64,000 nt of DNA, taken from the NCBI GenBank assembly GCA_022496205.1, contig WTXD01000067.1, forward strand, positions 1-64,000, written 5' to 3'. The stretch comes from Gloeopeniophorella convolvens (taxonomy: Eukaryota > Basidiomycota > Agaricomycetes > Russulales). How positions within the stretch are numbered: the first letter of the stretch is position 1; each line of letters starts with the position of its first letter. The notes under the pieces are model-generated. The model was not told the origin of the DNA, ran no database searches, and saw only the letters and a program-made list of their open reading frames with translations. Both the position numbers and the translations under genes were made by a program. Positions 1,820-41,704 of the stretch are shown here, piece after piece.

Positions 1820-1827
1820 AAAATCGG

Positions 1828-1953
1828 CACCTGTCATTCCCCATTGATACGCTATATCTAGCCTGTCGTATCGATCAAGCGTCGTGCTAATTTCAGCGTA
1901 AGGTTTTTCCCCTCCCCCTCGACGAATAGCTCGATGATTAATTCGTCGACTCT
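1828..1953 (+). repeat. Left terminal inverted repeat of the KDZ element
   Basis: It matches the reverse complement of 11378-11503 over 126 bp with scattered substitutions, and the first 57 bp are identical. Target duplication AAAATCGG lies immediately outside at 1820-1827. Confidence 0.93.
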
Positions 1954-2458
1954 GCCTCGCTCCCCTAAAGTAAGAACGACCGTTCCTTCCCTGTCAACGT
2001 CTTGTCAACGTGGCCTTCCGAATCCGTCATCGGAACTTCGGTGCGGTTCCGCCTTGTCACCGGTCGCCTGTGGCTGTGACGTCCGGGTCTCGGGAGTCTA
2101 ATGCAACCCGAGGCGGCGAGGCCGGGACCTTCCGCCATTTGCCGAAAGCAGCGCGCGTTCACGCGCAGCCCTCACGGGAGTTCACACGATCCCTGCAGTA
2201 GAAATGCGTAGTTTTATTGTGTCCAGTGGATAATACTGTTGGTTTATTGGGTCCTAGTGTGACTGTTAATAGAGCGTACTAAGGAATGTGCATGTACAGC
2301 TGTTTGTTGATCACCAACATGAGTGCACGTGCTCGTGGGTCTGTTGATTGTTGATCGTTGATCGGTCGCCGCACGTGATCTGTGTTTAGCCTCGACGCGT
2401 CCCACGCCCGCATCCCCTAACCTCACGTCCCTAACGCCTCACGCTCCTCCCCAGCAAG

Positions 2459-5400
2459 ATGGATAAGTTCAAGGGAAAGGGGTCCTCGCGCAGGTATGCT
2501 GTTCACACATCGCGCTTGAACTCCCTCGTTCCGTCTGTCAACCGCACAACCCACAATATGTCAGCGCGTCGGGGACGGATGGCAGCAGCAGCAAAGCGGA
2601 GGGCGGAGGCCATCAGAGGTGAGCACTGCCCTACATATGAATACAGCTGACCTATGTATCCCATGCTCTCAGAGCTGGGTGTCTCTGACAGGATGGACGT
2701 CGAAAATATGGACGCGAGTGGCCCAGTAACCGAAATCATCGAAGAATCTTCGTTTGCCTTTGGCCTGGTGGCCCCGGGAGATGAAGGATTCGACTTCAGC
2801 CACGAGGGAGGTGAGTTCGAAGTCTACGAAACAGTCGCGGATGAGGTCGCGGGCCTCTATAGTGATAAGTAAGTCATCTCCGCGCAGTGCAACCACCTTC
2901 CACCAAACACGAGGATTTGCCAGGCCGCGTTACACCGACCGACGCAATCGACGTAACCGCGTTGAAGCAAACACTTCGAACTGGTTACTGCAGATTGAGG
3001 ACTTGGTTTCGGCCTACCTGTACTATCAACACAAATCTTCCAAGACGCGCGCCAGCCCCGACGTCGCCTCAGCAGAAACTGAAGGAAACATCAATGTTGA
3101 TGCCTCTGCAAATGGTGAGGCATCCCTCGGATGCCTTGAAATCGAAGTTGTAGACATCTTCGGTGAGTGCAATGCCTCGCGCGGGACCTGTCATTGATAA
3201 TATGGCCGCCAGATCGTAGCTCGCGACGCTTCGTGTCCGAGCTTACTGACAAGTTCCCAAATGTCACCCTCCTGCGAGGTGGCTGCTTAGGGACTTCTCC
3301 ACTCCACCCGACTGTAGCGTTGTCCGTCCGAACACTTGAGCTGTACCGTCAGACGCACCGCGTCTGCCCCAAGCTCAGCATACAAGCACAAGTCCGCATG
3401 CTTTGTCACATGCATAATGTGAGTGAGACCTTGATGTGTTTGCTCATGACAGTGACTGACGCCGGTCCAGGTTCCCTATCGAAGCTATCTCTGCCATCAA
3501 TTTTCCGAAGCCTTCGACATATATCTTGAGATTCTCCACCGCGTCGATTTACGTGTCAACACAGTGCTCAAGCGTGACACCTCCGATTGGCGGCTGCGCA
3601 ATACATGCCCTGCCTGCTTCTACAAACTCAAGGACGAGCCGTTGCTTCAATTCTCGTTCTTATGTGAGATGGATGGCAACAATTCACTCAAACGTGTGGA
3701 CATGTCAAACAGAGGACAAATAGAGCGTCCTGACACGCGGACATTCCGCACGGACTACTGGCTCACGCCCCAGCAAGTCGATGTCTTCAAGGACGAAGTC
3801 AACAACTCGGTAAGCGTGCTCTATAGTGGTCGGTCTTCGATCATTGTATCACCCTTCGCTTGGTTTGCAGCACAGCAATGTCGGCAACGAAGTCCCAAAT
3901 GACGACGCGCACGGCGTGGTGGATGATACCGACGCATGGGTGGATGATGACGACGCGCCCCCAATTACCATGTGTCAAGAGCGCTGGCGTAACGCTGGCC
4001 CAGAACAACGCAAACGAATGTTCGCGATGTTCGCAGAAAGTGGGATTTTTGTCGTCGCATGCCGCCATGGTAATATCCTGCTTGCATGCGATATGATCCG
4101 CAGCGGCGAATTGTAAGTTGCCCCTTCCACTTTCTATATATACAAGTACTGAATGGCGCGCGGAAGATCAAAGTACCCCCTTGCCCTGGTCGACAAGCTC
4201 ATGAACGTCCACGGAGCCAACATCGCATGTGGCTACGACATCGGTTGCGTCTTTTCGAAGACACTTGCATCAAGTTCGCTGGGTCCACGCGCTCGCGACC
4301 TCAATCTGCGGATGGTTGTGGGTTCGTTCCATGGTCATGCACACAATCGCGTGTGCCAGTTGGACTGGCACCCGCACCATGTTCCAGGGATGGGCCGGGC
4401 TGACTTCGAGGGCTGCGAGCGCATCTTTGCGTCCTCGAACGCCTTGGCGTCTGGAGTCCGTTACGCGACAACGTTCCATCGCCACCAGGCTATTGAACAA
4501 CATTTCACGTTTTGGGACGAGGAGAAGTATGCGGCACTCAGTAAGTGGCCATGGTTCCTCGGGTTTCAGTTGCTAATCCACATCGAGGTCGTTATTTATC
4601 GAATCACTATCGGCAGGCACTCAAGATCGTCGAGGACCACCCTGCACGGCTGAAGCAGATTCAAAGCGCGCACAACATCTCAGACAATGACTTCGAGCGC
4701 TACTTGAAGGCTGAGAAGACGTATCTCGAAAGTCTAAAAGCCGAGCCGCCGGCGGACAGCCTTCAGTTCGAATACGTTGAAGCCCTGGATGCCCTCGAGG
4801 TGCACCGGTACGTCCCATAGCATCTGATCTCTGCGCATATAGTAACCTGTCCAGCATGAACTGGGCGGCCACGCAGACGAGCATCAGGTCGATGTACGGC
4901 GCGATTGCGACCGCCACTATAGCTACTGCCATGAACAAAGCGGTCCGGAAAGCAAACTCGCTGGCAAAGCGAATTGACAACGCCGAGGCGCACGCCGCAT
5001 TTCTTGAAGAGCAAATAGAGTTGAGTGGTGAGCGTTGGGCGGTGACTTCGCCCGAATACGTCGCAACGAAGCAGAAAATCGCGGAACGGAACTACCGGAA
5101 GGCCCTGGACGAGCTCGAACGCCTCGTCGTCCAGCGGCTTTTCGAATTGTCCAAGCTGAACGTTTCAGGAACAGGTACGCCCCCCCCCCCCCGGTTCGAA
5201 GGACGCTTGAGTCTTAGTAGATGGGGAACCTCATAGGCTACAAACTTCGTACGCACATAGCTAAGGCCCTCACCCGCCGCTCCGAGGCTATTCGGAAGGC
5301 CCTCGCGCGATATAACGAAGAGGCGCGGCGGCTCAGCCCTCCGCGGCCTGCTCTGAGTTGGAAGGAGATCGTTGAGTACTCGTTCCTTGGCGAGTTCGAC

Positions 5401-5883
5401 CTCCTGCGACATTCACGGCGCGATGTACGCCAGGAAGATTGGGCGCGACCTGCGAATCGCGAGGCGACAATCCAATATCTCGAACTCCAGCGCGCGCATG
5501 AAGAACTTGCCCGACTGGAAGTCGAAATCCCTCGGCTCCGCACCCGGATGGTCGACGAGCGTCGTGAGTATGAGGCTGCAATAAGTGCCATTGAGCACTC
5601 TGACGCGCCGCTCGCCCACGAGTTGCGAATCCGCTGGGCACGTCGGCGGCTGATTAATGAGTTGCACGAGAGTCGTTTGCACTGGATCGTTACGCTCCCC
5701 ACATACAAGGGAGCCCGCAACACAGGTGTCAGGTTGGGTAGTGCCGCTGAGCCAGCCAGCGACGATGTACTTACGCGCGAATCGTTTGCGGAGCCGCCAG
5801 ACGACGTACTTGAGGAGAATGAGGATGCGCTCGCTGAAGAGGTTGAAGCTTTGGATATATTCATTGATAACATTGTAGACTAG
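2459..5883 (+). CDS. KDZ family transposase, 980 residues, 10 exons
   Basis: Presumed cut-and-paste transposase that moves this element. Exons: 2459-2618, 2673-2868, 2924-3162, 3213-3418, 3471-3809, 3871-4112, 4167-4540, 4588-4807, 4855-5174, 5237-5883. They sum to 2,943 bases, all phases agree and there is no internal stop. Family features in order: a basic RRYTDRRNRRNR stretch (about 118-130), the cysteine motif CPACFYKL (about 313), MDGNNSLKR (about 334), CGYDIGC (about 482), FHGHAHNRVCQLDWHP (about 515-530), MGRADFEGCERIF (about 536) and the coiled-coil tail beginning GTGYKLRTHIAKAL. The aspartates in MDGN and YDIG and a glutamate in DFEGCE are the likely RNase H-fold catalytic residues; that assignment is inference from the family. 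Introns are 47-62 bp, and the ninth contains a 13-base C run. The ATG at 2459 is the first in frame. Confidence 0.93.
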
Positions 5884-6669
5884 CTGTATCCCCTTGCAAT
5901 GGAGTTTTGATTCTCTCGAAACTCGTATAGTTAACGTATCAGACGACCTCGAATAACGTTACATCGAGATGCGCACGCGACTGTCTTGCATACGCTCGCC
6001 GAAACAATTGCAAGGTGCAACGGTGCTATGCGAATGTGCCAGTGGTGATGTCACCTCAGAGTGCTACCGAGCACTCCGACACGCCGGTGCATACCGTGGC
6101 GCATCACGCCTTCGATGCGGGGGTCCTGGGGACTTCCTCCACCCGCTGTGTAAGGCTCGATGAACGTAGGGACAAGCCTGTGATGGGTTATTTGAACGCG
6201 GGTGACACCGCCCTTGGTAACAGGGGTAGTGACAGAGACCGAAGGGCCACTGAGACCGATGGCCGTGAAGAGCCTTGAAGCGGTGTCTTGGATGCTCTTC
6301 TGCATGTTCTTGCAAATGTGACGCATCCTGGTTGGGCTGCCAGGATCCGAGCTAACTTCAGGCAGAGGACTCGCTGCTGCATGGCCCAAGCGGATTGCGG
6401 AAACCTCAGCAGTTGTGTGATACAGCCAACACAGCATAGCGGGGGGCCAGTTGCATGCTCAGTGATGTTATCATCATAGTAAGATTGTTATACACATAGG
6501 TTGTATGCACAACCAAGGCTTTAGTGAGATTGCAATCGTGTAACGAGATTGTGGTCTCGCGTGGCGTTGGGCCGGCGTTGACAGCTGCAGTGACAGGTCG
6601 AGAGTTAGTGCAGATCCCAAGAAGCATGTTCAACAACACACCTCGTTGAACTCCTTGTTGCGCACCACC
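5884..6669. other. Spacer between KDZ transposase and second gene
   Basis: About 790 bp separate the transposase stop from the next ATG. It must hold the transposase 3' end and the promoter of the second gene. On the minus strand it also carries the small open frame listed separately. No inverted repeats or other known motifs were seen. Confidence 0.4.
6051..6326 (-). CDS. Candidate small antisense gene inside the KDZ element, 91 residues
   Basis: Open frame from ATG at 6326 to TGA at 6051 between the transposase and the second element gene, on the opposite strand. Third codon positions are mostly C or G with typical fungal codons (AAG, ATC, GTC, ACC), which argues for real coding. The protein is basic, includes RLFTAIGLSGPSVSVTTP near the middle and has no recognised motif. 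An upstream exon is possible, because the frame stays open to 6437. No homologue is recognised. It could also be a chance frame or a relic of an inserted gene. Confidence 0.3.
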   Translation of the reverse strand: MRHICKNMQKSIQDTASRLFTAIGLSGPSVSVTTPVTKGGVTRVQITHHRLVPTFIEPYTAGGGSPQDPRIEGVMRHGMHRRVGVLGSTLR

Positions 6670-8312
6670 ATGTCCCAGCCCCTCGTCTCCTCCTCCGGCC
6701 GCAAGATCAAGTATACCCCATCCTCGTTCCAAGCAGTCTTGCAAGGCCGTGGCCTGGAGCCGCAGCGTGCAACGGAAGCAGGAGCAAGAGCAGAGGCCCG
6801 CGAGGGTTGTCGTGCTGACGAGCGCCACGACAAACTTGCAGGAAAAGGCGTCCACGTCAGTTACTTGGAACTGCGAAAGGATACGCGTGGAGTCCCATAC
6901 GAGAGCGATGGCTCACATGCAGGGGTGGTCAGGAAAACGTTTGCGGATGCCCTGGATTGCGTAAGTTCGAACTGCTCTCGATCTACGCGGTCCGACTTAC
7001 ACGTGCAAGGTCACGATGCTCGATCGCGTGGGCGGCGGCTTCTCGTTGCTCCTGCACGCTCCCGGCTTTTTGCCAGCAAACCGGACTCTCACGCCGGACA
7101 ACATTGTCGTTGACGGGTACATCCCCCCTCGCGAGGCTACCAACCACAAGGACGCTCTGCAAGAGCCCATCAAAAACATTGTCGAGATCTTTGCGAGAGA
7201 TGTCGCTCTGCCATACCTGCATCGCACGCAAGAGTACTACGAGGCTTCGCTGATACCACACGAGTTGACGCATGTCTCCGACCCCGCCAGCATAGCCCTT
7301 GCCCCAAGCAGTGGCAGTTCTCACATCCGTTTTCGCCCAATTCCGCGCCTCCCCTTGTTCGAGGATGACAATGACGACGAGGAGATGTTTTCCTCGTACG
7401 ATCGACAGATGGGCTGGGACACCCTCACCGCCGAGCTCCTGCGTATGGGTCCCCGTGGCTCGACCCCCCCGCGTGAGTGCTCAACCATCAATTAACTTTT
7501 CAAGGCTGACCACTTGGCACTGCACCTAGCTCCGGCCTCTTCGAGCAGTGTGGAGACCCCCAGATCAAATAACGTGACCGTCCGACCGCAGCGCGTGCGC
7601 ACTCGCTCTGAGCCACCCATCCTCGAGCCAACCCCCCCCTTGCAGTCTTCCAACGAGTCGTCGTTCAAACGCACTCCCACTCCTGCACAGCGGCGTGCTG
7701 CTTTCGTGCCAACTCGTCTACTCACCTCCGACACTCTCGCGCCAACGAACAAGTCGGCCCGCAATGCGTTCATTTCTCCGGGCTCAGAGGACTCGCTCCC
7801 ACCGCTCCGTTTCGAACCGCCTCGTGCAGCTGACGCATCTCAGCTCCGCCACCGTGGCACAGAGGCCCCGGATACACACCGCGAGCACGACTGGAACGTC
7901 GCTGCTGCTGTGAGAACATCAACTCTCACGCATGACGATGGTCAACTTTACTCGGGCATTGGGCCCATAACGGATGGCGTCCTCAAGAAATTGAAGGTCC
8001 CAGCTGACGTCTGTTCAAGATTACGCATCTTGGCAGGGTCTCATCCATCATCGGAATGGATGGCGCGGCTTCAAGCCCCACTCTACGGGCTCAATGCCGG
8101 TCAGGCTACCGCCGTTTCTGTCGCGATAGCAGCAGACTTTGGCATGGACCTCGCCTTGGTGCACGGGAAAGTGAGTACTTGAAACTATCTGTGGGCTGAG
8201 ATCGTAACTAACACATCCCGTTTAGAATCGCACCTCCTCCTGCCTGATCTTGGTCGCAGTTATGATGACTGTAGCTTTCTTCTCGCTCGTCGCGTTCGTG
8301 TTTTTTGCTTGA
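6670..8312 (+). CDS. KDZ-element accessory protein with C-terminal membrane helix, 493 residues
   Basis: Unrecognised protein encoded by the transposon. Exons: 6670-6960, 7010-7472, 7530-8170, 8226-8312, totalling 1,482 bases with consistent phases. Introns are 49, 57 and 55 bp with GTAAGT or GTGAGT donors. The protein starts MSQPLVSSSGRKIKYTPSSF. The middle has an ordered-looking part (about 97-200, including VDGYIPPREATNHKDAL) and an acidic patch FEDDNDDEEMF. Residues about 255-350 are rich in Ser, Pro and Arg. The last 28 residues come from a separate exon and form a hydrophobic segment (SCLILVAVMMTVAFFSLVAF), so a tail-anchored or single-pass membrane protein is likely. No transposase or nuclease motif is visible. 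Its place between the transposase and the third gene suggests a role in the element's life cycle; that is inference. Confidence 0.82.
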
Positions 8313-8508
8313 TCTCAATATACTCAGCTCGCCGGTTTGCCCTTCTTGTCCAGTTTTCTTGCTTGCAGGTTACAATCACGTGCGTTCGTTGGTTGACAGG
8401 TCTTGAGCTAGTGGCTTGGAGGATCCTCGCGGGTCCTCACCCTTCTTTTTTTTTTCACCCATCACGACCACGTAGGCCCCCTGCTGTACCCCCTCCATAG
8501 TGTTGAAC

Positions 8509-10496
8509 ATGTTGTCTAATCCTACCGCGCAAAAACGAAAGCAAAGACAGGCATCGCGGCCACACGCGACCCGGCCCAAGCTCACGCAGACGGCACTTGA
8601 GGATGTTCGCGCGCGTCGACAGGAAGCAAACAACGCGTACGCTGAGAGTCTCCATGCCCTGGCATTAGACATCAAGAGCAAAATCAATGACATCGCAGCG
8701 AAGTACAAGAAGAGCTACGACACAGTTGAGAGCAACCTCAACCTTGGCACTGGCCGCTTTGGTAAGGGGAAGCACGAGAAAGCGAGTGCCTGGCACGCGT
8801 ATCAATGGAAACTTGGTCAGAACTCAAAAGAAAACAAAGGTAAGCGTTGCAGGTCATTCGCCGTACATTACCGCGTTGAAAAAAAAACCCCTTAGACGCG
8901 TCTGAGGAGGTAGAATTTGCCCAGCGTCCAACACTGCGAGCTGTCGAGTATCATGCCCTTACTCAAGAGGAGAAGAACGAGATGATCAAAGAGTATGAAG
9001 AGTACCGAGAGACCCGACGCGTTGGAGAATGGATGACAGCACAATCAAAGACGAACGATGTAGTCTCCACTTTATCAAGGGTGGAGCTCGAGGTAAGGCC
9101 TAGTCATAGCACATAGCACGCAGCGTAACTAATACATCAATCAGCTTGCCAACCTTGAGGCGCGTACGAAAGCCGCAGCCCTACTCTTTGTTGTCCGAGG
9201 GGATGTCGACCATCCAATGAAGCCAATCACGTTCGCAACCAAGGGCCTCTTACAGTTCATCGACATGGCCCTTGGGATCGACACAGGTGATTTTTTGTCA
9301 CGTCTTGAAGGTTTTGCAACGCATGGCATCAAAGGTAATCTATGCCAGCATCTCTAGCACTAACCCTCATAACTAATGTCCTCTTAAGGTGCCGCAAATG
9401 CTCACGCAAAAATGAACTTGACGCTCTTGCGACAGACCGTCAACACCCTGATCACAACAGGGCTTCGTAAGTTTGTGCCCTGCGTACATGTCGTGCCCTC
9501 ACTTACACCAGCATACAGGGAACGTTACTGGTGACGCAGATATTGACATGAAGTGGGGCGCTGGGTACTGGCATAAGATCGTGAAGACTCACCGCGTGAT
9601 CATCAAGTGCTGGCCCCCCAACATCACGTTTGCGTGCCTCACCAAATCTTGTGGCAGTATTGGCGACCTCCGCGTGCTGCTAACTGAGTGGGAGGAGGGT
9701 AAGACATACTGGGCCAAACTTACCGATAGAGAGTTTTCCGAAGAGGAACGCGAGCGCAACAACAAAATCAAGGCAGGTTTGCTTCCACCCGACAAGCGGC
9801 GCAAGTCTCGTAATGACAAGGGGAAGAGCCGCGAGAAGTCTCGCAAGTCTTCATCCAAAGTCCCGCGGCCACATCCTATAAGTGCAGCAATTATTGATGA
9901 CTCCGAGGACGAGGATGAGAACGAGAACGAGGGTGAGATTGAAAATGGAGATGAGGCCGAGGACGGTGAGAACGATGCTGCCAAAGACGACGACAGCAGC
10001 AGCAGCAGCAGCGACAACAACAACAACATCAACATCAACATCAACGGTGGCGGCAGCGGCAGCGGCGATCATTCCCTCAGTGGTAGTCCCTCAAAGAAAC
10101 GGCGGATCGAGAAGGAGAACATCCCACCCAACGAAAGTAGCCTAGGTCCGTCTGTGCCATTTCCGTCACGCGATTATCATCTTACTTGGCCTATCAGATC
10201 TCTTTTTGCCTGCTCGCACAGTGGTGGCCCCAGCAATCAACGACTTGCCCCATCAGCTGCAGTCTGGTGGCGCACTCATGCAGACCTTCGGCAGTCATTC
10301 AATTGCTAACGGCGCACATCCTCCCTCGCTCATATCCCCATATTCCACCACCAGTCTTTGGGACCCCTCCAACTCACTACTCGGCCCCCCTTCTGGCAGC
10401 CTGCTGGACGAATTGTATGACACAAATTGGCTGGCCTCAAACGCACCCGCTACCCCCACAAGTAGCCTACACATCCCTGGTGGCATGCAGTTCTGA
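8509..10496 (+). CDS. KDZ-element accessory protein with WP-type motif and acidic tail, 573 residues
   Basis: Unrecognised protein, third gene of the KDZ element. Exons: 8509-8839, 8896-9092, 9145-9334, 9389-9466, 9519-10145, 10198-10496, totalling 1,722 bases in phase. The N-terminus is basic (AQKRKQRQASRP), followed by a likely helical region with charged runs such as TQEEKNEMIKEYEEYRE. Residues about 291-334 hold a compact motif, HRVIIKCWPP then about 15 residues then GDLRVLLTEWEEG and YWAKLT. Residues 350-385 are very basic (DKRRKSRNDKGKSREKSRK) and are followed by an acidic Glu/Asp stretch and Ser, Asn and Gly runs encoded by trinucleotide repeats near 9995-10060. PSKKRRIEKEN looks like a nuclear localisation signal. 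A nuclear DNA- or chromatin-associated role is plausible but unproven. A gene at 39.8-41.7 kb on the minus strand shares the WP-type motif. Confidence 0.82.
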
Positions 10497-11377
10497 CATG
10501 GCGGCCGGTTCGTTCCCTTGCTGATTCTTCCACGTTCTTGACTGATGCACGCAAAGATCTCTTGAAGATATGTTTTGTAGGAGGATCTCAAGTATGTGAT
10601 CCGTCTCGACCATGTATGTGCATACACAACATCCATATTCCACTGGCAACCCTACTGACACGCTCGTCTTGCGCTCGCCATCCAGCCATTGAGTCTTGTC
10701 CAGGTCATAGCCGCGTTCCAGGCATCCCCCTCCCTTCCTCCTTGTTTGTCTTGCCAGCGTCACAGCACGCATCTATCGTATCTATTACTTAATAAACTGG
10801 CCATCTATATGCATCTGTATTTATGTATTATATAGTTCTTGAATGCGGGAGGGTGTAGGCCTCTCCGCGCTGCGTCTCAATGCCATTGTGTTCGACTTAT
10901 TAAAGTCCGCATAGATCACGTGTGCGCACTGTTGATCAATCAACAAGTGGCGCGTTTCGGTTCGGCGGCCCGGGGTATCAGCAGCGGAGAACAAACCGTG
11001 AGAAGTTCCACTTCTGTTGATTGGGTAGTACATGGTTGCACAATTTCTATATAGGTTCTACACCGCTCCTCAACACTATTATAGGCATATTTTGAGCTCC
11101 TGAAGGACTGGTACCCCTTCGTGAGTCGCAGCCACGTAGGTGCCAGAGGGGAACACACAAGGAACGCATGCAGCGGGACGGAACACCCCACGTGAGCGGA
11201 AGTAGACTCCCGAAGCTCCCGAGGTCTCTTCCGAGGTCCGGAAGCTCCCTCGCGGAAGCCACGTGTACGGAACAGAGCGCACCGAGAGCCCATGACAGAG
11301 AAGCCCGGAGGCTGCCGGGAAACAGTGACAGAGAAGACAGGGACCAACGATGCAGGTTCGTTTAGATGGGATGGGAT
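10497..11377. other. KDZ element 3' non-coding region
   Basis: No gene seen between the third element gene and the right inverted repeat. The AT-rich stretch around 10785-10850 (AATAAAC, TATGTATTATATAG) could serve for transcript ending. Around 10900-10945 GATCACGTG and GTTGATCAATC occur; similar words (CACGTGATC, GTTGATCG) lie inside the left end at 2340-2380 and may be subterminal protein-binding sites. Confidence 0.35.
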
Positions 11378-11503
11378 AGAGTCAATGAATTAAACGTCGA
11401 GCTATTCGTCGAGGGGAAGGGGAAAACCCTTAGGCTGAAATTAGCGTGACGCTTGATCGATACGACAGGCTAGATATAGCGTATCAATGGGGAATGACAG
11501 GTG
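11378..11503 (-). repeat. Right terminal inverted repeat of the KDZ element
   Basis: Reverse complement of 1828-1953, same 126-bp length, ending in CAGGTG. The second copy of the target duplication AAAATCGG follows at 11504-11511. Confidence 0.93.
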
Positions 11504-11639
11504 AAAATCGGTCTGGCTAAAACAGAAGCTTGGACATACCAGGCCGCCATCATAAATCATCGTCGATGCCAGCTCAACGAGGCACTAGGCATGCGTCAAA
11601 TGACAAGTGATGGGGTTGCACCGGAATGAGGCGTCGACG

Positions 11640-12056
11640 CACGAGAGCTCTACGACATCACACCGCTTCGATTATGACAAGCTAGCCGAACAGGAAGGAA
11701 GAGAGCAGGGAGCAGGGCGGAGAGGAGACGCGGGCGGCGGCAACGGTGGGAGACCGGAACCGCGCGCGCAGGCCACGAATGAGGCGACGCGGTAATGCGC
11801 GGAGCGACAACAACCGCAGCTCGTGACGACGGGCGCGCGCGGAGCACGATCACGCACACGACCCGGCACACCAAGCATCGGCGAGAAGCCGATAACCCCT
11901 CGACATTCACACCTCACCAACGACGATGCGACCACAACGTTACGCAACGCCAGCTCACTTGGCGCGGCTCATGCCGCGCAGGGCTGGGGGGGGCGGGACA
12001 GGGAGAAGGATACATGGACGCGAAGATACGCTGAAAGGAAGGGGTAGACAGACATC
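11640..12056 (+). repeat. Dispersed repeat, copy 1 (partner at 41866-42430)
   Basis: Shares scattered but clear identity with 41866-42430 in the same orientation, for example CGCTTCGATTATGACAAGC against CGCTTCGACTACGAGAAGC, then CGCGGTAATGCGCG in both. In both places the retroposon-like tail described at 12057 and 42431 follows, so this may be the body of a longer non-LTR element. Confidence 0.45.
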
Positions 12057-12112
12057 CGTGCTACATGGGGTTCTGTACCCACAGGTGCACGTTAATGGAT
12101 TAAAAAAAAAAA
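12057..12112 (+). mobile_element. Short retroposon 3' end with poly-A tail, copy 1
   Basis: Core CGTGCTACATGGGGTTCTG, then a variable part and ACGTTAATGGATT, followed by 11 A. The same core with an A-rich or simple-repeat tail is found at 26584-26717, 42431-42500, and reversed at 34957-35012 and 53288-53348. The 3' tail is typical of SINE or LINE retroposition. Confidence 0.6.
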
Positions 12113-12700
12113 CGAACATGTAAACAGGTAGTGACTAGCGCTGGAGCTGAGTAACCGGGAGCGGGAATCGTATAGTCAGCCGCCCGTCAGAGAGAATTTG
12201 TAATGAGATGGCACTGCAAACCGAGGAGATCACCAGGGCTAACGAAGGTGCGCGATGGCACGTCTCGGGAGCGTGGGTGCGTAGGGCAGATCCCCAGGCC
12301 CATTGGGCGAGTCGGGCCTAAGCGGAAGGTAGGCCTTCCACAACATGGGAGATACACCGTTCTTCAGCCCGACTTGCGTTGTAACAGGGACTGCGAGGTA
12401 CCAAGCAAATTGCCGGGAAAAAAGACGTTCCGGCTGTGGGAATCGCTTGTCGTCTCGCATCGGGCTGCAGCGGGTGAGCGTCCGGGGAGAACCGGTGGCT
12501 CAACCCCTTTCGGAAAACACAATCACGTGCAGCATGAACCCGAGCGTTCATGCGGAATGTGCCGTCCCGCATCCTGCACTGCATCCGACCGAGTCCCCCT
12601 TGAGCGGCACCGCCATAATGAATCCCCGGCGCAGACTACTCTCACCATACTATCAGCGGGGACATGGATATCTGTAATGCCGTGGATGACCGTCGGTACG
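12113..12700. other. Spacer without recognised gene
   Basis: Frames up to 171 codons exist on the plus strand but have no recognisable motif or splice pattern. No repeat shared with other parts of the window was noticed. Confidence 0.3.
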
Positions 12701-33700: not shown

Positions 33701-34235
33701 CAACCTTGTCGAATCATCCCATCCCAAATGGCAGGCTGGGATCCCGTGCGGCTCTGCGAGATGATCTCAAGGGTAGACTCCGGGATTATCGATCACCCTG
33801 CGCAACCTTGTCAGATCATCCCATCCCAAGTGACAGGCTGGGATCTGCAGACGGAATCGAACCATCCCGTGCCCGCGCGGCTCCGCGGGATGATCTCAAG
33901 GGGTATGTTTCGGGGTCATCGATCACCCTGCACAATCTTGTCAGATCAGACCACCCCATCCCGTCCCAAGTTGCAGGCTGGGATCCTGCGGCTCCGCAAG
34001 ACGATCTCAAGGGTAGACTTCGGGCCATCGATCACCCTGCGCAACCTCGTCAGATCACCCCATCCCGGATGACGGGCTGGGATCTGCAGAAGGAACCATC
34101 CCGCGCCCGCCCATCCCGCGCCCGCGCGGATCCACGAGATGATCTCAAGGGTAGGCTTCAGGGTCATCGATCACCCTGCACAACCCTGTCAGATCAGACC
34201 ACCCCATCCCATCCCAAACGGCAGGCTGGGATTTC
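33701..34235 (+). repeat. CAACCTTGTCAGATCA repeat array 2, five units
   Basis: Unit starts at 33701, 33803, 33933, 34042 and 34181, giving spacings of 102, 130, 109 and 139 bp. Each unit has CAACCTTGTCAGATCA, CAGGCTGGGATC, CTGCAGA.GGAA, a GC-rich block and GATCTCAAGGGTAG before GATCGATCACCCTGC. The same unit occurs at 30790-31080 and reversed at 56940-57600. Confidence 0.8.
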
Positions 34236-39787: not shown

Positions 39788-41704
39788 CTAAGCAACGCTC
39801 TGGAAGCCTGACCCGGCCTCCGACGGATCGCTTAAATGAAACACCATTCGGCGCACTGTAGGGCAAGAAGGCCGGTTGAACTCGCCAATAACTTGGGGGC
39901 CTGTGCCATCAATGAAGGAGCTATGACTGGGTCCACTGAGGTCTAGCTCACTGGAGTTGCCCATCGGAAAGTCTGTCAACGGCATTGGAAGGAAGGTATG
40001 GCTCCTAGTGGCATAGAGCATCAGGTCGGGGGGAGTTGTGCCACCGTTCAGGATGGAAGTCCTGGGCGTTAGGGCAGTCGTGGCAGCATTAGAGGGCGGT
40101 GCAAAATCTGTGATCGGTCCCGAACTGGCTTTGGTAAAAGCACCGTTTTCTTGAGTTTCAAGGTAGCTGGAAGTTGAAGCGCACACGCGCTTATTTCGTG
40201 GGACCATTGGAGCCGTAAAAGGGGAACTCTCCTCGCTGTCAATATCCCCAAAAGCCCGCTTGCAAGCCTGCCCTCGTCCGGTGGACCACTTCGCCTGAGT
40301 GCTGTCAGAGACGCGGACAAAGACGCCCCTGTGTTGGTGAGTAGGCATGAGTGCTGCTAACCCAGGGCGTTGAGTATATAGCCAACAGTCCGAGGAGGTA
40401 TGCAGTAGGACTTACTACGTGAATCACCCCGTGTGCAAGATGGTGCGACTGGCTCACAGTGCATCGGTGTCCTCTCGAAGAAGCAGGTCCCGGACTTGAG
40501 AGCACCACGTAGCGTTTTCAGCTCGTCTATATCGAGCATGCGGGCGGGCTGCCTTGGCTCGCCTTGCAGGGGCCATCCACGCAAGATAACGCCACGAGCA
40601 TCAGGCCTTCCCATTGCCCATGTGGACCAGCTCATACGCCAAGAGTCATCACCCACTATCCCTGATTTCCCTACGCATACCATCCCAGAGCACAATGAGC
40701 ACCGGAATAAACCGCGACAGACATTCAAGCCGTGAGGCACTCACCTAGGCACTCATGATAGAGGTCGCGCAGGAGGGCCACAATTTCTGGCCTTATTGCT
40801 GCCCTCGTATCTCTGCCTCGGGCATGGCTCTTCACCGCCCATCCAATAACGCCTTCTCACGGCTATCAGTGTACTGGTCCGGTAGATCCCAAGTTGGGCT
40901 TGAAAATAAAGAAGGAAAAAAAAAAAAAAAAGGGGGGGGGGGGAAGACCGGAACATTATAGTCATATCCCTTACCTCCTACACCAGAGGCTTGGTTCTCC
41001 AAATAGGTTTCGAAGCAGTCGGCTAGGTTCCTGGGTTCCTTCCCCAGGCAGTCCTTGAGGAAGCCGGATCCTGCTTCGGACACGAGTATGAATGGGAATG
41101 GGCGTGCGCCGTGGTCGGCTACACGGCGCACTCCGAGTAGAACATACTCAAATTGGCTTTGAATAGTCAAATTTGAAAGCTAGGCAAGGTAATGAGCGTC
41201 GCGAGTTAACCCATAGCGTGCAGTGAATAGTGAGAGCCATCTGCCAACCTCAGCGGAAACTCGACCCATCGCTGCATGTACCGCCTGTACATCTTGGTTT
41301 TGCACTTGCGGCTTGTGGTCGCCTCCACAAGCGGAAGGTTAGTGAGTCTGCCCACGCAGCTTAGAGGGAGTTCGCGTACATTCGATGAATTCGTACAGCA
41401 GAGGCCCTTCTCCTTTGATGGTAGGCCCTTTCTGATTTTGTCCATTACTTGAAAGCATAGTCTTCGTACGGCCACATTTCTTCTTGTTATCGGAGGTCAT
41501 CATGGAGTTATACACGACGCCGGGTGAGCAAAAAGTAGGCGCACGGTGGGTGCGCGGATGCAGGCCCTGCAAAGAAAACATGGTATATACGGTGTTACAT
41601 ATCTGTATCACCCAGCGCGAATCTTTGACAGAAATGGAACTCAATAGGGCATATGGAACGTTTGGGGATAAGACGGTGGTGCATTGCCATGTGTGGAGAC
41701 CCAA
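39788..41704 (-). CDS. Multi-exon hypothetical protein with WP-type motif
   Basis: Minus-strand gene, splice model only partly resolved. Good exons, in gene order: one around 41550-41210 (DNKKKCGRTK, then KCKTKMYRRYMQRWVEFPLRLADG); 41150-40973 (QFEYVLLGVRRVADHGARPF, CFETYLENQASGVGG) ending at donor GTAAGG; a short one ending near 40747 (EIVALLRDLYHECL); 40670-40390 (GDDSWRMSWSTW, then RGVILRGWPL and DELKTLRGALKSGTCFFER); and a last one to 39788 (Ser/Thr/Pro-rich, with KRAFGDIDSEESSPF). The motif VIL.GWP...L..L...GT.FF resembles residues 291-334 of the third KDZ-element gene. One intron holds adjacent poly-A and poly-G runs near 40918-40942. Function unknown. Some junctions do not phase, so partial decay is possible. 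Confidence 0.5.

Follow-up and report, generated by a model that had tools for sequence, protein, structure and literature searches.

A complete three-gene KDZ DNA transposon in Gloeopeniophorella convolvens (Russulales)

Introduction

Three mobile KDZ elements have been described in Cryptococcus neoformans. KDZ1, KDZ2 and KDZ3 are ~11, ~9.2 and ~10 kb long, carry terminal inverted repeats (TIRs) of 241, 139 and 169 bp, and jump into a reporter gene, with target-site duplications (TSDs) of 8 bp for KDZ1 and 4-8 bp for KDZ2 and KDZ3; a CxC1 domain is also reported (PMC12810828). The TET-bearing Kyakuja elements of Laccaria lack TIRs, duplicate 7 bp of target sequence and carry a TET/JBP dioxygenase gene, and TET-bearing Kyakuja occur in the Agaricomycotina, Russulales included, with 5'-CA..TG-3' termini (PMC12730594). 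For Zisupton elements, PMC12730594 cites TIRs and a TSD of 8 bp. Among the DNA elements of Marasmius oreades, KDZ and Plavaka together account for about half, and their TIR motif has been characterised (PMC8290104).

Here we describe a complete KDZ DNA transposon of 9,676 bp at positions 1828-11503 of a window of 64,000 nucleotides from the wood-inhabiting fungus Gloeopeniophorella convolvens (Russulales; contig WTXD01000067.1). It shares a KDZ transposase with the Cryptococcus elements, and its length of 9.7 kb, 126-bp TIRs and 8-bp TSD can be set beside theirs. However, jumping has been demonstrated for KDZ1-3, whereas the element in the window is described here from its sequence, and its CxC1 match is sub-threshold. 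In addition to the transposase (gene 1) it carries two further genes, here called genes 2 and 3, and the available text of the Cryptococcus description makes no mention of genes like these (PMC12810828). Kyakuja is similar in belonging to the KDZ superfamily, in its 5'-CA..TG-3' termini and in having an extra gene beside the transposase, but the element differs from it in its 8-bp TSD and its TIRs, and genes 2 and 3 have no Pfam match above cut-off to a TET/JBP dioxygenase. With Zisupton the element shares an 8-bp TSD, TIRs and a KDZ transposase, a likeness in described features. The features of the KDZ superfamily found in it are the PF18758 domain, an acidic core, and TIRs with an 8-bp TSD. 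Elements of this kind are already known, and the part worth following is the recurring pair of companion genes.

Extent, Ends and Target Site

A first-pass annotation of the window had proposed an intact three-gene KDZ transposon with exact ends and a perfect 8-bp duplication, and both proposals are confirmed. The duplication, AAAATCGG, is found exactly at 1820-1827 and 11504-11511. The TIRs, of 126 bp each, lie at 1828-1953 (plus strand, starting CACCTGTCATTCC) and 11378-11503 (minus strand). They had been called matching but are not identical: 117 of the 126 positions agree (93%), the first 56 bp are perfect and every one of the nine differences lies beyond position 56. When the left end was searched against the 36.68-Mb assembly, with only the best candidates scored, it matched the element's own two arms and nothing else (E 1.1e-59 and 2.4e-47), so the pair is not due to chance. 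Further copies with the same ends had been suggested as something to look for, and none turned up, either among these best candidates or with a 25-base end pattern run over the assembly at up to three mismatches, which found nothing beyond the element's own two ends. A weak subterminal inverted repeat pairs 2348-2384 (TTGTTGAT..CACGTGATC) with 10910-10946; its score of 27 was equalled in 15 of 1000 shuffles, and it is tentatively put forward as a possible transposase binding site.

The left flank was found once in the assembly, with no empty site. Because the right flank holds a dispersed repeat, a search of the assembly with it gave 40 scored matches from 55 candidates, its own site included; apart from that site, not one of the 40 extends into the 152 bases next to the element, so they include no empty site. 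This repeat occupies 11656-12120, and of its 39 scored matches at other places in the assembly two are 91-92% identical along more than 430 bp. On the other side, a FAD_binding_4 domain (E 2.4e-14) is encoded on the minus strand at 508-1245, ~0.6 kb left of the insertion, and the element may sit in the upstream region of this gene. A tandem array of period 248 and 2.1 copies is present at 33715-34232.

Gene Content and the Transposase

All three genes lie on the plus strand. As first described, their 20 exons (10, 4 and 6) join in phase without an internal stop; they are separated by 17 introns and encode proteins of 980, 493 and 573 aa. Introns were placed by hand and checked by phase and against relatives; an automatic intron finder over-called them.

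Gene 1 (2459-5883) has exons at 2459-2618, 2673-2868, 2924-3162, 3213-3418, 3471-3809, 3871-4112, 4167-4540, 4588-4807, 4855-5174 and 5237-5883. Its product matches the Pfam KDZ family PF18758 at E 4.5e-79 (265.6 bits, cut-off 26.6) over positions 2-217 of 217. D335, D485, E542/E545, C313/C316 and an HGH.HNR.CQ..WHP block are invariant in all nine rows of an alignment that comprises the hand model, the public model of the same gene and seven relatives picked from 120 listed; the D/D/E acidic residues are those that we take to be catalytic. By profile match and alignment, the gene 1 product is a KDZ transposase that keeps the conserved KDZ core. A CxC1 zinc cluster is usual beside KDZ, and the candidate in this element scores E 0.023 and 15.3 bits against a Pfam cut-off of 26.9. 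The public model is a 745-aa "partial" protein that lacks the N-terminus and has three further differences from the hand model. The N-terminus of the hand model aligns with four longer relatives through a PG(D/E)E..SH.GGE block. Alternative acceptors for introns 5 and 6 were ruled out because stops result.

A protein search for relatives scored 7994 candidates, of which 206 reached E 1e-60 or better. Among the best 120 of these 206, the closest from outside the species are those of Auriscalpium (58%), Lactifluus (56%) and Heliocybe (55%); the top two proteins of Auriscalpium vulgare show 55-58% identity to the public gene 1 query across 91-100% of its length. With the same public protein, relatives in the fungus's own genome are at most 47% identical over stretches of ~190 aa, with 53% in one stretch of 114 aa, and no close sister of the element was found there by this search. 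Horizontal transfer was considered and is not claimed, the nearest listed outside relative being from Auriscalpium, which belongs to the same order as the source fungus.

This anatomy is very probably that of a KDZ DNA transposon that is autonomous, moves by cut and paste and arrived here in a single insertion. Its being a single copy in the assembly, and the nine differences between its TIRs, would also fit a complete but already silent insertion, its frames open only through youth and its transposition ended. We hold this to be a possible, though not the probable, state of the copy: all three frames are open, the TSD is exact, the TIR differences fall outside the first 56 bp, and the element shows neither an excess of TpA nor a loss of CpG relative to the rest of the window. 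On the reading as an autonomous transposon, the element may be mobile at present.

Related KDZ Families in the Genome

A search of the genome with the KDZ family gave 65 matches, which fall into at least 32 places when grouped by eye, a lower bound with only the best candidates scored. In nine of these 32, a transposase, gene 2 and gene 3 follow in this order on one strand: the window, which was counted from its own gene models, C368, C262, C367, C31, C257, C390, C366 and C385. The transposase stretches in the other three-gene places are mostly 34-53% identical to that of the window. At C208 the transposase is accompanied by gene 3 alone, at C382 a relative of gene 2 lies 5 kb downstream of a transposase match, and the C401 place is cut by the contig end; no companion gene was detected in the other 20. 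Such misses may reflect decay, truncation, divergence or true absence. Genome searches with the gene 2 and gene 3 proteins of a second family, described below as family B, gave 18 and 40 matches, respectively, family B's own included. These did not return genes 2 and 3 of the window, nor did searches with the window genes return those of family B. Relatives of gene 2 or 3 also lie away from any detected KDZ gene, at C157, C322, C382:64461-65523 and window 40351-41314; the last, on the minus strand, is a gene 3-related remnant (E 6e-9 with the family B protein). KDZ scores are the same or nearly so within the contig groups C31/C367, C1/C334 and C257/C390/C366/C401; these places may be recent copies, or haplotypes duplicated in the assembly. 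The three-gene content is not peculiar to the copy in the window, and its recurrence suggests that the two unnamed proteins travel as standard KDZ passengers or helpers.

The KDZ element of family B is present on C262, C31 and C368 in copies 97-99% identical to one another; C367 matches it at the ends and in genes 2 and 3. C262 and C368 are 97-98% alike from the exact left end of the element and have different left flanks, so family B, too, moved fairly recently. The copy seen from end to end (C368:4420-15889, 11,470 bp) begins CACCTG and has an inverted repeat, the first 131 bp of which align without a gap; it is flanked by TCCAACAT and TCCAACAC, which agree at seven of eight positions, and two genes follow the transposase on the same strand. 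The transposase region of C368 includes ~0.9 kb that is absent from C262, and we therefore make no claim that the C368 copy is intact. Between C368 and C262, gene 3 has a dN/dS of 0.45, from 12 synonymous changes and 17 others, and the gene 2 exon one of 0.67, from 10 and 18; neither value is decisive.

Family C, at C257:145637-156349, likewise begins CACCTG and has a long inverted repeat, and no target-site duplication was seen for it on C257. The CACCTG start is thus common to the element in the window and to both other families whose ends were reached. Families B and C resemble this element in their CACCTG ends, long TIRs and the order transposase, gene 2, gene 3. They differ from it in the stretch-by-stretch identity of their transposases (34-53%), in having more than one copy, and in a gene 2 that lacks the hydrophobic tail and gives no significant alignment to that of the window. 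The first-pass annotation had expected an undamaged copy to define ends, target-site length and gene content; it does so, and the end signature and gene content are now backed by families B and C.

The Companion Genes

Gene 3 (8509-10496; exons 8509-8839, 8896-9092, 9145-9334, 9389-9466, 9519-10145 and 10198-10496) encodes 573 aa of a KDZ-linked family, with runs of basic residues. The public model is of 565 aa and differs from the hand model in its last intron. No Pfam family scores above cut-off, and among the 7994 candidates sharing most words there is a single outside relative, from Mycena rebaudengoi (26% over 59%). Direct protein searches between the gene 3 proteins of the window and family B missed a link in both directions. 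A profile of the window and M. rebaudengoi proteins nevertheless matches family B gene 3 with an hhalign probability of 97.9 (E 3.5e-13, 265 columns). Introns 1-4 have phases 1,0,1,1 in both genes; the alignment places introns 2 (just before LANL) and 4 at identical columns in the two genes, with intron 1 offset by at most one column and intron 3, beside a gap, by at most three. Because of the profile match and the four introns in matching phase, homology of gene 3 across KDZ families can be argued firmly, and gene 3 is the firm part of the three-gene module.

Gene 2 (6670-8312; exons 6670-6960, 7010-7472, 7530-8170 and 8226-8312) encodes 493 aa, and the hand model is identical to the public model BC834DRAFT_974101 (Gloeopeniophorella convolvens). 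It has no Pfam match above cut-off and no relative in other species among the 7994 candidates sharing most words. Its C-terminal hydrophobic helix is coded by an extra last exon. A paralogue is located at C382:59862-61970, ~13.5 kb from the nearest KDZ match, with 74% DNA identity over the gene and its upstream region; the upstream regions by themselves (6189-6669, plus strand, in the window) share 81% identity. Over 488 codons dN is 0.189 and dS 0.58, giving a dN/dS of 0.33 (bootstrap 0.25-0.42), a ratio that shows past selection on the protein. In the C382 copy there is a 7-bp insertion at the first acceptor, its public model splices differently, and the hydrophobic-tail exon remains open. 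The gene 2 relative on C382 lies near the gene 3 relative at C382:64461-65523, which is on the other strand. An inverted 14-mer around the C382 copy was rejected as chance-level, other 13- and 14-mers being present in the same list.

Across families, gene 2 agrees in position and strand and has a GLNAG/GFNAG-type C-terminal block. In the window and in family B a phase-0 first intron precedes a similar-looking block, a visual match that is a hint only. Comparison of the window protein with those of other families by hhalign gave probabilities of 0.2 and 1.6 (P 0.032 for the latter). With full-length shuffles 140 of 400 scored as well (BLOSUM62); with block shuffles, 413 of 3000 did so for the exon-2 block and 5 of 3000 for the C-terminal block, the figures for the corresponding blocks of the C382 paralogue being 380 and 606 of 3000. 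Gene 2 of the window is the positional equivalent of gene 2 in the other families, and homology is likely but unproven.

Structure predictions from two-row alignments were poor for both proteins (mean pLDDT 34.9 for gene 2 and 42.0 for gene 3). Weak PDB sequence matches (transaldolase 0.15, Ku 0.038) were taken as noise. Database annotation gives both as hypothetical proteins only.

Both companion genes are contained within the element, but are they working parts of it? Host capture of one or both as passengers is unlikely. It would account for the second occurrence of gene 2 and its upstream region on C382, so far from a KDZ match, and for the scarcity of relatives in other species among the 7994 candidates scored (no match for gene 2 and a single one for gene 3), but relatives of genes 2 and 3 follow the transposase in families B and C and at C385, the link being by position only for gene 2 of the window. 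A composite, in which one KDZ gene and two genes of another element lie between chance repeats, is very improbable. In its favour, no KDZ gene was detected with the gene 3-like remnants at window 40351-41314 and C382:64461-65523; against it, all three genes lie inside unique 126-bp ends with an exact TSD, and the same gene order is found elsewhere in the genome.

Proposed Mechanism and Significance

For an autonomous KDZ transposon of this anatomy, the gene 1 transposase would bind both 126-bp ends and cut at CACCTG..CAGGTG. Joining of the element to target DNA at cuts staggered by 8 bp would then produce the AAAATCGG duplication. Genes 2 and 3 would be standard accessory genes of this KDZ clade, and the gene 3 protein is probably a nuclear partner of the transposase, working either on the ends or in import or assembly. 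Helper proteins are known from En/Spm, Mutator and Harbinger and offer an analogy. More tentatively, and with considerable doubt, the CACCTG-ended KDZ clade may move by a three-protein machine and not by a lone transposase, with the fast-evolving gene 2 protein and the gene 3 protein both needed and the gene 2 product of the window a tail-anchored membrane protein.

No description of the gene 2/gene 3 pair was found in the available text of the literature searched; an earlier mention is possible, the founding KDZ paper, reportedly that of Iyer et al. in 2014, lying outside that search. Through the undamaged copy in G. convolvens, the ends of an Agaricomycete KDZ family, the length of its target duplication and its set of genes are now fixed, and the recurrence of two non-transposase gene positions from family to family provides concrete proteins that can be tested for a part in KDZ movement.
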